The translations under genes and the position numbers were made by a program. Source: Ruminococcus sp. (lineage in GTDB: Bacteria > Bacillota > Clostridia > Oscillospirales > Acutalibacteraceae). From it: a stretch of 64,000 bases of DNA. The stretch lies in contig JAFQDM010000014.1 in the NCBI GenBank assembly GCA_017416065.1, positions 43,473 through 107,472 on the forward strand, in the 5' to 3' direction. Positions 10,038 to 18,070 of this stretch are shown here, piece after piece. The stretch's first letter is position 1; the number at the start of each line of letters is the position of its first letter. The notes beneath the pieces are model-generated. The model ran no database searches. It worked only from the letters and a program-made list of their open reading frames with translations, and was not told where the DNA came from.

Positions 10038-10070
10038 TAATGTGTATATTTATCTTTTGAGGTGATACTC

Positions 10071-11882
10071 TTGGCATTTGATCAGAGTAAAATTAGAAAT
10101 TTCAGCATTATCGCACACATTGACCATGGTAAATCCACTCTTGCAGACCGCATACTTGAGCACACAAGCTCCATAACCGAGCGCCAGATGCAGGACCAGA
10201 TCCTTGATGATATGGAGCTGGAGAAGGAGCGCGGAATTACCATCAAAGCAAGAGCGGTAACTCTTCAGTATAATGCAGACGACGGTGAGACCTACACCTT
10301 CAACCTTATAGACACTCCCGGACACGTGGACTTTAACTACGAAGTGTCCCGTAGCCTTGCAGCCTGCGAGGGTGCGGTGCTTGTTGTTGACGCAACTCAG
10401 GGCATTGAAGCTCAGACCCTTGCAAACACATACCTTGCCGTTGATTCAGGGCTGGAGATAGTACCCGTTGTAAACAAAATTGACCTTATAAGCGCAGACC
10501 CTGCCCGCATCAAGAACGAGATCGAGGACATCATCGGCATTCCCGCACAGGATGCCCCCGAGATCTCTGCAAAGAACGGCATCAACATCCACTCCGTTAT
10601 GGAGCGCATTGTTCAGGATGTGCCTGCTCCCGAGGGAGATATCAACGCACCTCTGAGAGCTATGATCTTTGACAGCGTATACGACAGCTACAAGGGAGTT
10701 ATCATCTACGTCCGCATAAAAGAAGGAAAAATCAGTGTCGGCGACGAATTCAAGCTTATGCAGACAGGCTCCGTGTTCTCCGTTGTAGAGCTTGGCAATA
10801 TGGGTGCCGTCTCCTCTATGCAGAAAGATACTCTCTACGCAGGCGAGGTAGGATATATCACAGCCTCCATCAAAACTCTGGGCGATGCAAAGGTTGGCGA
10901 CACGGTAACCCTTACAAAGAATCCTGCAGAGTTCCCCCTGCCCGGCTACCGTGAGATACAGTCCATGGTTTACTGCGGAATCTACCCTGCAGACGGCGCA
11001 AAGTACGGCGACCTGCGTGATGCACTTGAAAAACTCAAGCTCAACGATGCCTCCCTTACCTACGAGGCAGAGACTTCCGTTGCTTTGGGCTTCGGCTTCC
11101 GTTGCGGTTTCCTCGGACTTCTGCATATGGAGATAATCCAGGAAAGACTTGAGCGAGAATTCAACCTGGATCTTATCACCACAGCCCCCTCAGTAAGCTA
11201 CAAAATAACCCTTACCGACGGCACTCAGAAAATGATAGATAACCCCACAAACTACCCCGAGCCCTCACTCATTGCTTCTGCAGAGGAGCCCTTCACAAAT
11301 GCTCACATCTACGCCCCCTCAGAATACGTAGGCAATATTATGGAGCTGTGTCAGGAGCGCCGAGGGGTATTTATAGGTATGACATACATCGACTCTGACC
11401 GTGTGGACATTCACTACGAGCTCCCCCTTGCAGAGATAGTCTACGATTTCTTTGACACACTCAAATCCAGAACCAGAGGCTATGCCTCCTTTGACTACGA
11501 GCTGAAGGAATACCGTCAGAGCCAGCTTGTAAAGCTTGACATTATGCTCAACGGCGACGTGGTGGATGCTCTCTCCTTTATCATCCACGCAGAGAAGGCT
11601 TATCCCAGAGCAAGAAAAATGGCAGAAAAGCTCAAGGAGAAGATCCCCAGACAGCTCTTTGAGGTGCCCATTCAGGCCTGCATCGGCGGCAAGATCATTG
11701 CAAGAGAAACCGTTAAGGCTATGCGCAAGGACGTTCTTGCCAAGTGCTACGGCGGTGACATCACCCGTAAGAAAAAGCTGCTTGAAAAGCAGAAAGAGGG
11801 TAAAAAGCGTATGCGTCAGCTGGGTACTGTTGAGGTGCCCCAGGAGGCGTTTATGGCTGTGCTCAAGCTTGATACAGACTAA
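10071..11882 (+). CDS. lepA: Elongation factor 4 (LepA), ribosome-associated GTPase
   Basis: 603 residues, the normal LepA length. G1 AHIDHGKST, the switch region RGITIKA, G3 DTPGH and G4 NKID are followed by domain II, the EF-G-like domains III and V, and the LepA-specific C-terminal domain ([16 protein letters not shown]). It acts on stalled or assembling ribosomes. A TTG start at 10071 is preferred: GAGGTGA lies five bases upstream, and the in-frame GTG at 10062 is part of that ribosome site. Own promoter upstream and a strong terminator downstream. Confidence 0.96.
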
Positions 11883-11905: not shown

Positions 11906-11941
11906 AAAAGCCGGCTCACACCAAAATGTGAACCGGCTTTA
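11906..11941. terminator. lepA terminator; first copy of a 36-bp duplicated hairpin
   Basis: AAAGCCGGCTCACA pairs with TGTGAACCGGCTTT (one A.C mismatch) around a CCAAAA loop, followed by AATTTT. The same 36 bases occur in the same orientation at 12737-12772. The stop codon of the XRE gene on the minus strand lies in its right edge. Confidence 0.9.
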
Positions 11942-12187
11942 ATTTTGCACTTCTAAACCTAAAAAGAACTCGTCATAGGAGCAATTATAGATCTTGCGTA
12001 ATGTAACAATAACGCTTGCTCTTATATTAAGCTCTCCTGCTTCGTATTTTGCATAAGTTGATCTTCCTATATCACAGCCATTGCGTTGTAACTCTGCACA
12101 CAGCTTTTCCTGAGACAGACCGGAGACATCTCTTAATCTCCTGAGATTGTCCCCCATATTCAAATCCCGTCTTATTTTTTGTTCCAT
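11939..12187 (-). CDS. Small XRE-family helix-turn-helix regulator
   Basis: 82 residues. The HTH_XRE core is visible: NLRRLRDVSGLSQEKLCAEL, then STYAKYEAGELNIRASVIVTLRKIY, ending in a short YDEFFLGL tail as in single-domain Cro/cI-type repressors. ATG at 12187 is chosen because GGAGGAG lies four bases upstream; no good ribosome site supports longer versions. It is transcribed divergently from the SLOG gene, and repeated TATACTGG motifs lie between them, so it probably represses that promoter and its own (inference). Its stop codon overlaps the lepA terminator. A+T-richer than lepA. Confidence 0.85.
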   Translation of the reverse strand: MEQKIRRDLNMGDNLRRLRDVSGLSQEKLCAELQRNGCDIGRSTYAKYEAGELNIRASVIVTLRKIYNCSYDEFFLGLEVQN

Positions 12188-12198
12188 AAGACTCCTCC

Positions 12199-12281
12199 GT
12201 ATAGCATTGACCAGTATTGGTTGCAATTTCTTATATTTTATGCTATACTGGGATAAAATATTGTCCGCTATACTGGTCAAT
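12199..12281. promoter_or_regulatory. Divergent promoter/operator region of the XRE-SLOG cassette
   Basis: ATTGACCAGTAT (12206-12217) and ATACTGGTCAAT (12270-12281) are perfect 12-base inverted repeats, and a third half-like copy TATACTGGG lies at 12244-12252. A plus-strand promoter fits TTGCAA (12221-12226), a 17-base spacer and TATACT (12244-12249); its -10 overlaps the middle copy. This layout suggests repressor operators for the XRE protein. Confidence 0.6.
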
Positions 12282-12294
12282 TGCAGATGAGTCT

Positions 12295-12732
12295 GTGTCT
12301 ATTTGTACATTTTTCGGTCATCGTGATGCTCCAAGTGAAATAGAACCTTTAATTAAAATTGCCATCTCAAACTTAATAGATGCACATAACGTTTCAGAAT
12401 TTCTCGTTGGTAATAACGGAAGCTTTGATCTTATGGTTATTCGTTGCCTTAAAAAACTCATTCCTTTATATCCCCATATAAAAGTAAAAATTGTTCTTGC
12501 ATATATACCAACAGAAGATAAAAACTTTCCTTTTGACACTCTTTATCCTGAAGGATTAGAATTGTCTCCAAAAAAATTTGCAATCTCAAAGCGCAATTAT
12601 TGGATGCTTAATAAAGCTGCACATGTTATAACCTTTGTCTCGAAGCCATACGGTGGTGCCGCTAAGTTTTCAGCTATAGCAGTGCAAAAAAGAAAAAACG
12701 TCATTAATTTATATAATATTTATCTAAAATAA
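12295..12732 (+). CDS. SLOG-fold protein of the CTFFGHRD family
   Basis: About 145 residues. The N-terminal CTFFGHRDAP, the central FLVGNNGSFDLMV, and ISKRNYWMLNKAAHVITF followed by YGGAAKF are recognisable hallmarks of a widespread Firmicute protein family in the SLOG (LOG/DprA-like Rossmann) superfamily, whose members bind nucleotides or nucleotide-derived ligands. No enzymatic role is established for this group. The GTG at 12295 is chosen because homologues begin just before CTFFGHR; longer readings back to a TTG at 12217 would run through the promoter and operators. It forms a cassette with the divergent XRE gene, bounded by duplicated terminators, and is A+T-richer than its neighbours. 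Confidence 0.75.
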   Translation: MSICTFFGHRDAPSEIEPLIKIAISNLIDAHNVSEFLVGNNGSFDLMVIRCLKKLIPLYPHIKVKIVLAYIPTEDKNFPFDTLYPEGLELSPKKFAISKRNYWMLNKAAHVITFVSKPYGGAAKFSAIAVQKRKNVINLYNIYLK

Positions 12733-12736
12733 CGCC

Positions 12737-12772
12737 AAAAGCCGGCTCACACCAAAATGTGAACCGGCTTTA
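12737..12772. terminator. Terminator of the SLOG gene; second copy of the 36-bp hairpin
   Basis: Base-for-base identical to 11906-11941 and in the same orientation, followed by GTTTT. It serves the SLOG gene and, in the other direction, gtrA. The pair brackets the cassette at 11942-12736. Confidence 0.9.
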
Positions 12773-12784
12773 GTTTTATAACCT

Positions 12785-13240
12785 TTATTTTTTATTTTTG
12801 AACACAAAGAGCTTGCTTAAGACGTAGTTGAGGATCACAACCACAACGCTCACAATCACCTTTGCCACCATTCCCTCGATGCCGAATATGGACTGGTTAA
12901 GACCTATAAGCATCAAAAGAGGAACTCCTACCCACTCGAGCACACCCGTTGCAAGACGGGAACCGACAAAGGATGCCATCTCTTTAAAGATTACATCTGA
13001 TTTAAAGCTTTTGCTCTCAAATACCCAGAGCTTGTTGGTGATAAACGCAAACAAAACCGCGCATATCCAGCTGAGTACGTTTGCCACAGAGGAGAGCACT
13101 ATGCTGTTTGCAATGATGATGCCGAATATGACCTCAAACAATGCGTAACTGCCCCAGCTTACCAGAGTTGTCAGCACGCCGAAGATCAGGTACATTATAA
13201 TTTCCTTGTATTTCAGAAAAAGTCCTTTGAGTTTTTCCAT
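12785..13240 (-). CDS. GtrA-family membrane protein (putative lipid-linked sugar flippase)
   Basis: 151 residues with four hydrophobic helices (about 17-40, 45-68, 92-115 and 122-143) and the GtrA end motif YVLSKLFVF. GtrA/GtcA proteins are thought to move undecaprenyl-phosphate-linked sugars across the membrane. It lies three bases after the GT2 gene, which makes such lipid-linked sugars, and near the yfhO-type transferase gene: the three parts of a known envelope-glycosylation scheme. Probably the second gene of a two-gene operon. Confidence 0.88.
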   Translation of the reverse strand: MEKLKGLFLKYKEIIMYLIFGVLTTLVSWGSYALFEVIFGIIIANSIVLSSVANVLSWICAVLFAFITNKLWVFESKSFKSDVIFKEMASFVGSRLATGVLEWVGVPLLMLIGLNQSIFGIEGMVAKVIVSVVVVILNYVLSKLFVFKNKK

Positions 13241-17384: not shown

Positions 17385-17391
17385 TATAAAG

Positions 17392-17424
17392 AAAGTGAGC
17401 AGAGTAGATTCTGCTCACTTTTTA
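17392..17424 (+). terminator. Terminator of the yfhO-like gene
   Basis: AAAGTGAGCAGA (17392-17403) pairs perfectly with TCTGCTCACTTT (17410-17421), with a T-rich tail. It also abuts the stop of the RHH gene on the other strand. Confidence 0.85.
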
Positions 17425-17589
17425 TTAACCTATTTTAATTTCTCCGTGCTTTTCTTCGTATTTTTCAATACAATCCCTAATTAGAATCAATATCTGGCTA
17501 TTCGCACTTCTTCCCTCATAATCTGCTACTATATGCAATTTATGAAGTGTTTCTTCCGATATTCTTATAGATAAACTCTTTATAGCCAT
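17425..17589 (-). CDS. Small ribbon-helix-helix (Arc-like) DNA-binding protein
   Basis: 54 residues, easily overlooked by size. The translation begins MAIKSLSIRISEETLHKL and continues IVADYEGRSANSQILILIRDCIEKYEEKHG, the beta-strand/helix/helix pattern of Arc-like RHH proteins (SLSIRIS strand, GRSANSQI turn into helix 2). They bind DNA as dimers. The ATG at 17589 follows GAGG. It is divergent from a SLOG gene 105 bases away, paralleling the XRE-SLOG cassette, so it probably controls that gene (inference). The stop sits next to the yfhO terminator. Confidence 0.75.
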   Translation of the reverse strand: MAIKSLSIRISEETLHKLHIVADYEGRSANSQILILIRDCIEKYEEKHGEIKIG

Positions 17590-17694
17590 AATAACCTCAC
17601 TACAGATATATTTTATATTTACTTTATACCTAATTTGTGATATTATGTTAAAAGTAGATACATTATATATTCATATTATATCTAAAGGTGAGTT
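17590..17694. promoter_or_regulatory. Divergent control region of the RHH-SLOG cassette
   Basis: 105 very A+T-rich bases with several TATA-like hexamers, an AGATATA...TATATCT inverted repeat spanning most of the region, and AAAGGTGAG as ribosome site of the SLOG gene. No single promoter can be chosen with confidence. Confidence 0.4.
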
Positions 17695-18036
17695 ATGAAA
17701 ATTGCAATAGTCGGTTCAAGAGGAATAACTAATATTAATTTAGAAAAATATATAACAAAGCAGATACTTATAAATGTGTCTGAAATTGTAACCGGCGGCG
17801 CTAAAGGCATCGATACTTTAGCTATGCAGTTTGCAAGAGATAATAACCTTCCGTGCAGGATATTCCTTCCTGAGTATTCCAGATATAAAAAAGGTGCTCC
17901 CCTTAAACGAAACGAGCTTATTGCAAATTATTGTGAGGAAGCATATATATTTTGGAATGGAAAATCTAAAGGAACAAATCATATTCTTAATTGTTTTAAT
18001 AAGTTAAATAAAAAGGTCAATTTGTTTATTATATAG
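17695..18036 (+). CDS. Small SLOG-fold protein (DUF2493-like)
   Basis: 113 residues forming one Rossmann-like domain. IAIVGSRGI at the start, IVTGGAKGIDTLAMQFA, PEYSRYKKGAPLKRNELIA and IFWNGKSKGTNH are hallmarks of the DUF2493/YAcAr branch of the SLOG superfamily, relatives of DprA and LOG that bind nucleotides. No catalytic function is known. AAAGGTGAG precedes the ATG. With the divergent RHH gene it makes a cassette between two terminators, between yfhO and gyrA. Clearly A+T-richer than gyrA and yfhO, suggesting acquisition. Confidence 0.8.
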   Translation: MKIAIVGSRGITNINLEKYITKQILINVSEIVTGGAKGIDTLAMQFARDNNLPCRIFLPEYSRYKKGAPLKRNELIANYCEEAYIFWNGKSKGTNHILNCFNKLNKKVNLFII

Positions 18037-18037
18037 T

Positions 18038-18070
18038 AAGACCGCTGTGTTTGTGCACAGCGGTCTTTGT
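18038..18070. terminator. Bidirectional terminator between the SLOG gene and gyrA
   Basis: AAGACCGCTGTG (18038-18049) pairs perfectly with CACAGCGGTCTT (18056-18067) around TTTGTG. Confidence 0.8.

Follow-up and report, generated by a model that had tools for sequence, protein, structure and literature searches.

The window (the whole 64-kb stretch of DNA analysed here) contains, at the junction where lepA and gtrA converge, a cassette of 795 bases that is bounded on either side by a copy of one hairpin and carries two divergent genes, a minus-strand gene for an XRE regulator and a plus-strand gene for a SLOG protein (Table 1). These are the sole genes between the repeats; no recombinase or transposase gene is present inside the lepA–gtrA cassette. 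Its GC content is 35.0%, compared with 50.2% for lepA and 43.0% for gtrA, which confirms the sequence-only reading of an XRE–SLOG pair that lies between these genes and is A+T-richer than both; across the 64 kb, 16 of 317 segments of 795 bp have a GC content equal to or below that of the cassette. The 3' end of lepA is 82.6–88.2% identical in DNA to that of 29 fetched relatives.

Table 1. Features at the lepA–gtrA junction and of the second regulator–SLOG pair (positions in the window)
Feature	Position	Strand	Basis or remark
lepA	10062..11882	+	left neighbour, reads towards cassette; translation
left hairpin copy, predicted bidirectional terminator	11906..11941	.	to 11946 allowing one mismatch (41 nt)
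predicted XRE repressor, 82 aa, MEQKIRRDL type	11939..12187	-	HTH_3 9.3e-08
predicted divergent promoter/operator	12207..12281	.	promoter-like match, inverted repeat and conservation in 24 loci
operator left element TTGACCAGTATTGG	12207-12220
promoter-like site TTGCAA-17-TATACT	12221-12249
operator right element CCGCTATACTGGTCAAT	12265-12281
YpsA-clade SLOG protein, ~145 aa, GTG start inferred	12295..12732	+	PF06908 0.00092
right hairpin copy	12737..12772	.	to 12777 allowing one mismatch
gtrA	12785..13240	-	right neighbour, convergent with lepA; PF04138 1.7e-16
second regulator–SLOG pair	17391-18070
Arc-like repressor of second pair	17425-17589	-
DprA-like SLOG of second pair	17695-18036	+

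The two hairpin copies are identical over 36 nt and have the same orientation, so that a repeat search bore out the identical terminators noticed earlier on either side of the cassette; with one mismatch allowed the repeat extends to 41 nt, at a spacing of 831. At up to 3 mismatches only these two copies occur in the 64-kb window (mean in shuffled sequence 0.00), and the pattern AAAGCCGG-4 to 30 nt-CCGGCTTT is found at two places only in the 1.86-Mb assembly (84.8% complete), both of them the cassette hairpins. The hairpin therefore does not behave as a common terminator of this genome, the circumstance that the sequence-only reading had named as fatal to its proposal, and with no third copy found in the 1.86-Mb assembly the common-terminator explanation was rejected for the window. 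Both copies fold strongly on either strand (z -5.2 to -7.4), which fits the expectation for a bidirectional terminator between convergent genes.

As read from the sequence, the XRE gene starts at ATG 12187, which has a Shine-Dalgarno-like sequence, and its stop codon falls at the very end of the left hairpin copy. With the copy in a related genome, G041, the protein shares 92.5% amino acid identity over 80 aa. Conserved inverted elements, TTGACCA.TATTGG and CTATACTGGTC-like, flank the promoter-like sequences; among 24 loci with an XRE regulator of the MEQKIRRDL type, the right element is present in 23, the left (at most 3 substitutions) in 21, and both in 21. The retention of both elements supports autoregulation of both genes, and the earlier description of the module as self-regulated thus gains support from a conserved predicted operator; the XRE protein would then repress both cassette genes.

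The SLOG gene most likely starts at GTG 12295, there being no in-frame ATG and no clear ribosome-binding site. Its start region (12280-12297) is unlike that of relatives such as the G041 copy, and the gene may be weakly translated. The YpsA profile PF06908 is matched at E<=0.01 by 21 of 22 aligned members of the family (best 2.9e-11), and for the window protein on its own the score is 19.7 bits, under the curated cut-off of 27.7 (0.00092); on these profile matches it is a member of the YpsA clade. The profile phrog_289 of PHROGs, listed as a GTP-binding domain, is matched by 15 of the 22 members; this was regarded as a distant match. Among PDB sequences a profile search with the SLOG family found nothing significant (best E 0.17), NCBIfam contains no family matching the window protein, and two weak sub-threshold matches in Rfam were disregarded. 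It has no match in PADLOC either, where three families each match one other SLOG member weakly, and a known defence system was rejected for it on that basis. Thoeris ThsA involves a SLOG domain, and the connection to Thoeris suggested by the sequence-only reading holds at the level of the superfamily and no closer, the window protein being of the YpsA clade with no PADLOC match. The cassette encodes only the XRE regulator and a stand-alone SLOG protein, with no TIR or SIR2 partner; membership in Thoeris was ruled out by the absence of the TIR and SIR2–SLOG pair from the cassette together with the lack of a PADLOC match. According to two published sources (PMC9503650, PMC6459960), YpsA-like SLOG domains are nucleotide-related with predicted roles in conflict systems, and B. 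subtilis YpsA is a cell-division and oxidative-stress protein. The conserved GxFD of the cassette SLOG resembles, in our reading, the GxD/E substrate motif reported for YpsA-clade proteins (PF06908) in the same sources (PMC6459960, PMC9503650); unlike B. subtilis YpsA, the cassette protein resides in a small regulated cassette. We can only infer a role in nucleotide signalling or defence, in which the protein may sense or process a nucleotide signal, perhaps in a phage or stress response.

The sequence-only reading had proposed a search for regulator–SLOG pairs between duplicated hairpins at other places, and such pairs do recur. SLOG loci were collected from the genus and the family, plus 80 from named genomes; subtraction of 6 near-identical and 8 not usable loci from 179 left 165 YpsA-type SLOG loci, of which 21 have a hairpin duplicated at the cassette ends, and none of 985 control pairings of the upstream flank of one locus with the downstream flank of another passes the same hairpin test. 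The 144 loci without hairpin duplication may be older, decayed or otherwise inserted. Within the 21, the weaker cases are L172, L264, L295 and L302, and by reading the hairpins of L035, L105, L171, L172, L264 and L295, like that of L400 in a second SLOG family, may be dispersed repeats, not terminators. At L035 (G010) the hairpin belongs to a larger repeat and is present in three copies over 1.2 kb, so that it may be a dispersed repeat and not a duplicated target. An earlier, looser hairpin test gave 22 of 113 loci against 2 of 449 mismatched pairings, with L116, L172, L177 and L180 (whose hairpins are not at the cassette ends) and the identical copy L043 excluded as support. Across the duplicated loci the hairpin sequences are locus-specific: one genome, G026, has three cassettes with a hairpin pair particular to each, and in G041, which is not counted in the 21, the same XRE type and a SLOG gene follow lepA between two hairpins that share their stem with each other and not with the window.

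A second, DprA-like SLOG family has duplicated hairpins (score >=26) in 4 of 29 loci, where L387 and L405 represent one site and L400 is maybe a dispersed repeat; its control is weaker, with 2 of 171 mismatched pairings reaching score 26. Different regulators are joined to SLOG genes from the two families. One DprA-like locus, L395, has an Arc-like regulator of the type found with YpsA-type SLOG in L037 and L171, which argues that regulators have been exchanged between SLOG families. The second regulator–SLOG pair of the window (Table 1) sits, by reading, between a YfhO gene and a convergent gyrA-like gene, and its flanking hairpins are unlike. With respect to a prophage-borne moron, which phage genomes would carry, in viral contigs one pattern-based scan found 2 loci, neither with duplicated hairpins; distant relatives occur in 1 phage record and 3 plasmid records, and the neighbours in the window are lepA and gtrA.

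The anatomy was tabulated for a set of 21 loci picked for having the duplication. The inserted segment is 706–830 bp in 19 of 21 (L035 and L288 are longer), and in 19 of 21 no more than 22 nt separate the SLOG stop codon from the start of the right copy (the stop is 46 nt before it in L035 and 31 nt inside it in L105); in several loci, e.g. L038, L120 and L190, the stop codon forms part of the copied target. The regulators comprise several XRE types and an Arc-like type, and of the 19 loci with a regulator called, 16 have its stop codon at most 12 nt from where the left copy ends. With one mismatch allowed, the duplicated block is 29–50 nt, median 37 (14 loci of 16 given); the stem-loop occupies most of the block in 14 loci, with 0–24 nt beyond it on either side, and in L124 the block boundary cuts part of the stem. 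Of 25 loci given, 21 allowed both neighbours to be assigned (longest ORF only), and in 15 of these the neighbours converge, the left neighbour of L042 being possibly misassigned, as a gene on the other strand is likelier. The cassette edges vary between loci, shifting relative to the ORFs. Variable edges and the lack of shared sequence between loci speak against the earlier suggestion that a hairpin serves as a fixed attachment-like site. Terminal inverted repeats were sought in the inner 40 nt of 18 loci, with a mean of 5.39 against 5.36 in 306 mismatched pairings and none of the 18 reaching the 95th percentile, a comparison that does not bear on repeats within the duplicated block itself. 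At L037, L134, L400 and weakly L264, the hairpin copies are inverted, not direct, which is not expected from a plain staggered cut.

Sites that are filled in one genome and empty in another reveal what was duplicated. At the exoA site the filled genome, G026, has 838 nt between the genes, and G040 and G028, with 75 and 48 nt between the same two neighbours, have one hairpin each, that of G040 being clearly homologous to the G026 pair; 20 loci including G026 were fetched, and the left neighbour, checked in five (L198, L199, L201, L205, L206), is the same in three (G040, G028, G017). In the third of these, G017 (L201), a lipoprotein-like gene is inserted at the exoA junction between two unlike hairpins, so that hairpin duplication does not accompany every insertion at this place. 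The murE site is occupied in G038 (991 nt), and G025 (78 nt) and G032 (155 nt, measured between aligned ends) each carry a single hairpin that is homologous to the G038 pair; 15 of the 20 fetched loci were read, and the left neighbour is the same in two (G025, G032) of the five checked. The presence of one homologous hairpin in the relatives at exoA and murE argues that the terminator was duplicated upon cassette entry, and it supports the part of the sequence-only reading in which a unit enters and copies its target terminator. With these sister sites as the proof, we conclude from sequence comparison that the duplicated sequence is that of the predicted ancestral target terminator.

The lepA–gtrA junction itself gives a more mixed result. 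In G015 lepA and gtrA are ~69 nt apart, with the cassette absent and a single hairpin, so that relatives are not all filled at this place, and the earlier expectation of a relative with one hairpin and no cassette holds; the G015 hairpin has the predicted geometry, but its sequence differs from that of the window, so that the parental single copy was not found at this site. In G027 another gene is present at the lepA site, with one hairpin that has the same 10-bp stem as the G041 pair, a comparison that lends partial support to target duplication. L042 and L043 (G026 and G027) are identical over 3.4 kb, and G027 also has two lepA matches, which suggests that the G027 assembly holds contigs of the species of G026.

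Taken by comparison, these loci make it probable that a small mobile gene cassette entered the bidirectional terminator between lepA and gtrA and duplicated it. The mobile unit would be the regulator and SLOG gene, back to back around their shared operator; after entry each cassette gene would end in one terminator copy, and lepA and gtrA would keep theirs. A scan of 1.156 Mb of G026 found six non-coding hairpin duplications that pass the filter, a scan blind to copies differing by insertions or deletions, as at L190; one of the six is a SLOG cassette, and of two others, judged by reading, one is a duplication of tRNA type and the other reflects tandem paralogues. The window's own genome, scanned over 790 kb, gave five non-coding hairpin duplications, of which the window cassette and one further locus (L099; contig C15, 1872-3530) are terminator-like by reading. 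In L099 a zinc-ribbon membrane-protein gene lies between near-identical terminator hairpins (33 nt, spacing 1618), beside genes that by reading look like nrdR and an IscU/NifU-type gene; a non-SLOG gene with a duplicated terminator implies that the process may not be SLOG-specific. For regulators of the same type (60 loci fetched, 52 located, 34 used), the duplication is present in 4 of 17 loci with a SLOG partner, 0 of 17 with another partner and 1 of 131 in the null, counts that are too few to prove SLOG specificity and come from a table in which partner type largely tracks regulator type and some YpsA/DprA labels are wrong (weak matches).

As to how the terminator is copied, we lean tentatively toward template switching at hairpins: replication would stall at the target hairpin, copy a donor segment itself bounded by hairpins, and re-enter ahead of the target hairpin, which would be copied again. 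Such a course would explain the variable edges, the absence of terminal repeats, the ends at stop codons and the occasional inverted copies. A hypothetical hairpin-specific enzyme acting in trans, cutting opposite strands on either side of the hairpin so that repair duplicates 29–50 nt, much as a repeat is duplicated in CRISPR adaptation, is a rival that we consider possible and somewhat more doubtful. It agrees with the filling of most of the block by the stem-loop in 14 loci and with the few other terminator-like duplications in the two genome scans, and it would explain an enrichment at SLOG cassettes; it does not, however, fit well with inner ends that have no terminal inverted repeats (18 loci), with ends that shift relative to the ORFs, or with the existence of inverted copies.

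Two sites that are filled in more than one genome bear on a different account, in which initially different hairpins became alike through gene conversion once the cassette was in place, with no copying at insertion. L131 and L141 (G447 and G383, species of a single genus) share a cassette that in both is flanked by ftsH and an oxidoreductase gene but points in opposite directions, with a cassette identity of 79.7% and flank identities of 86.0% and 83.0%; a search for an empty version of this site in genus g5 (4 genomes, query the other flanking gene) gave 2 matches, both filled. At L387 and L405 the cassette identity is 92.9% and the flanks are 85.7% and 87.1% identical. In both same-site pairs the two hairpin copies within a genome agree in their loop variants and differ from the copies in the other genome, which implies conversion between copies or renewed insertion and is what gene conversion would produce. 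However, unrelated short hairpins would presumably lack the homology to start conversion, and what is duplicated has its homologue in the lone terminator at the empty sites of relatives; gene conversion as the origin of the likeness is therefore unlikely. More improbable still is a site-specific cassette, integron-like or other, that recombines at the hairpins: the unit is indeed small, hairpin-bounded and promoter-bearing, but its hairpins match each other and the target and not those of cassettes with the same regulator type (L033, L034; L035 doubtful), and it contains no integrase. That the genes happen by chance to lie between hairpins of a widespread repeat or terminator class is scarcely credible, for although hairpins at L035, L105, L171 and L400 resemble dispersed repeats and the looser test matched hairpin repeats in its 2 mismatched pairings, the own assembly has two copies, the stricter control has none in 985, and the sequences are locus-specific.

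With some doubt we advance the possibility that regulator–SLOG pairs make up a class of mobile cassettes that have neither recombinase nor terminal repeats, target any intrinsic-terminator hairpin and copy it on entry. The SLOG protein, which is related to the DNA-binding protein DprA, may then help insertion. If the terminator is copied at each entry, accessory genes could settle between convergent housekeeping genes with expression undisturbed and without a transposase, every insertion bringing its own insulation, and the spread of tiny nucleotide-signalling modules in animal-gut Clostridia (habitat from record titles) would be explained. Locus-specific duplicated hairpins provide a sequence signature for finding other such cassettes, and the mechanism of insertion becomes testable if the target terminator is copied at entry. 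As the regulators vary and a SLOG gene is constant, one can also ask directly whether SLOG proteins are linked to DNA mobility.

Searches of open-access literature, by title and abstract start, turned up no description of terminator-duplicating cassettes; the words 'duplication of the terminator' occur in one paper (PMC8880864). With a classical transposon or insertion sequence the cassette shares a target-site duplication, here of 29–50 nt; transposase and terminal inverted repeats, which are part of such elements, were not found. Integron cassettes too are small gene units that move and have hairpin-forming sites at their ends, and their attC sites are recognised by structure; they differ from the SLOG cassettes, in which the hairpins follow the target and not the cassette and no cassette-borne attC or integrase is found. 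CRISPR spacer acquisition places incoming DNA between two copies of a block of ~30–40 nt that is often palindromic, as the inserted cassette lies between copies of a hairpin block; here, however, the new DNA is ~0.7–0.8 kb and carries genes, the targets are unrelated in sequence, and there is no array. The insertion sequence IS1272 is placed in the IS1182 family. As described in its report (PMC5678879), it encodes a transposase, has terminal repeats and takes the place of the inverted repeat that it targets, with nothing duplicated, whereas the SLOG cassette, without transposase or terminal repeats, keeps and duplicates its target hairpin. IS1272 is nevertheless the nearest precedent met, the likeness being in stem-loop targeting: according to that report, its target stem-loops are of unrelated sequence, and two of three new insertions lay 66 and 15 bp downstream of genes (PMC5678879).
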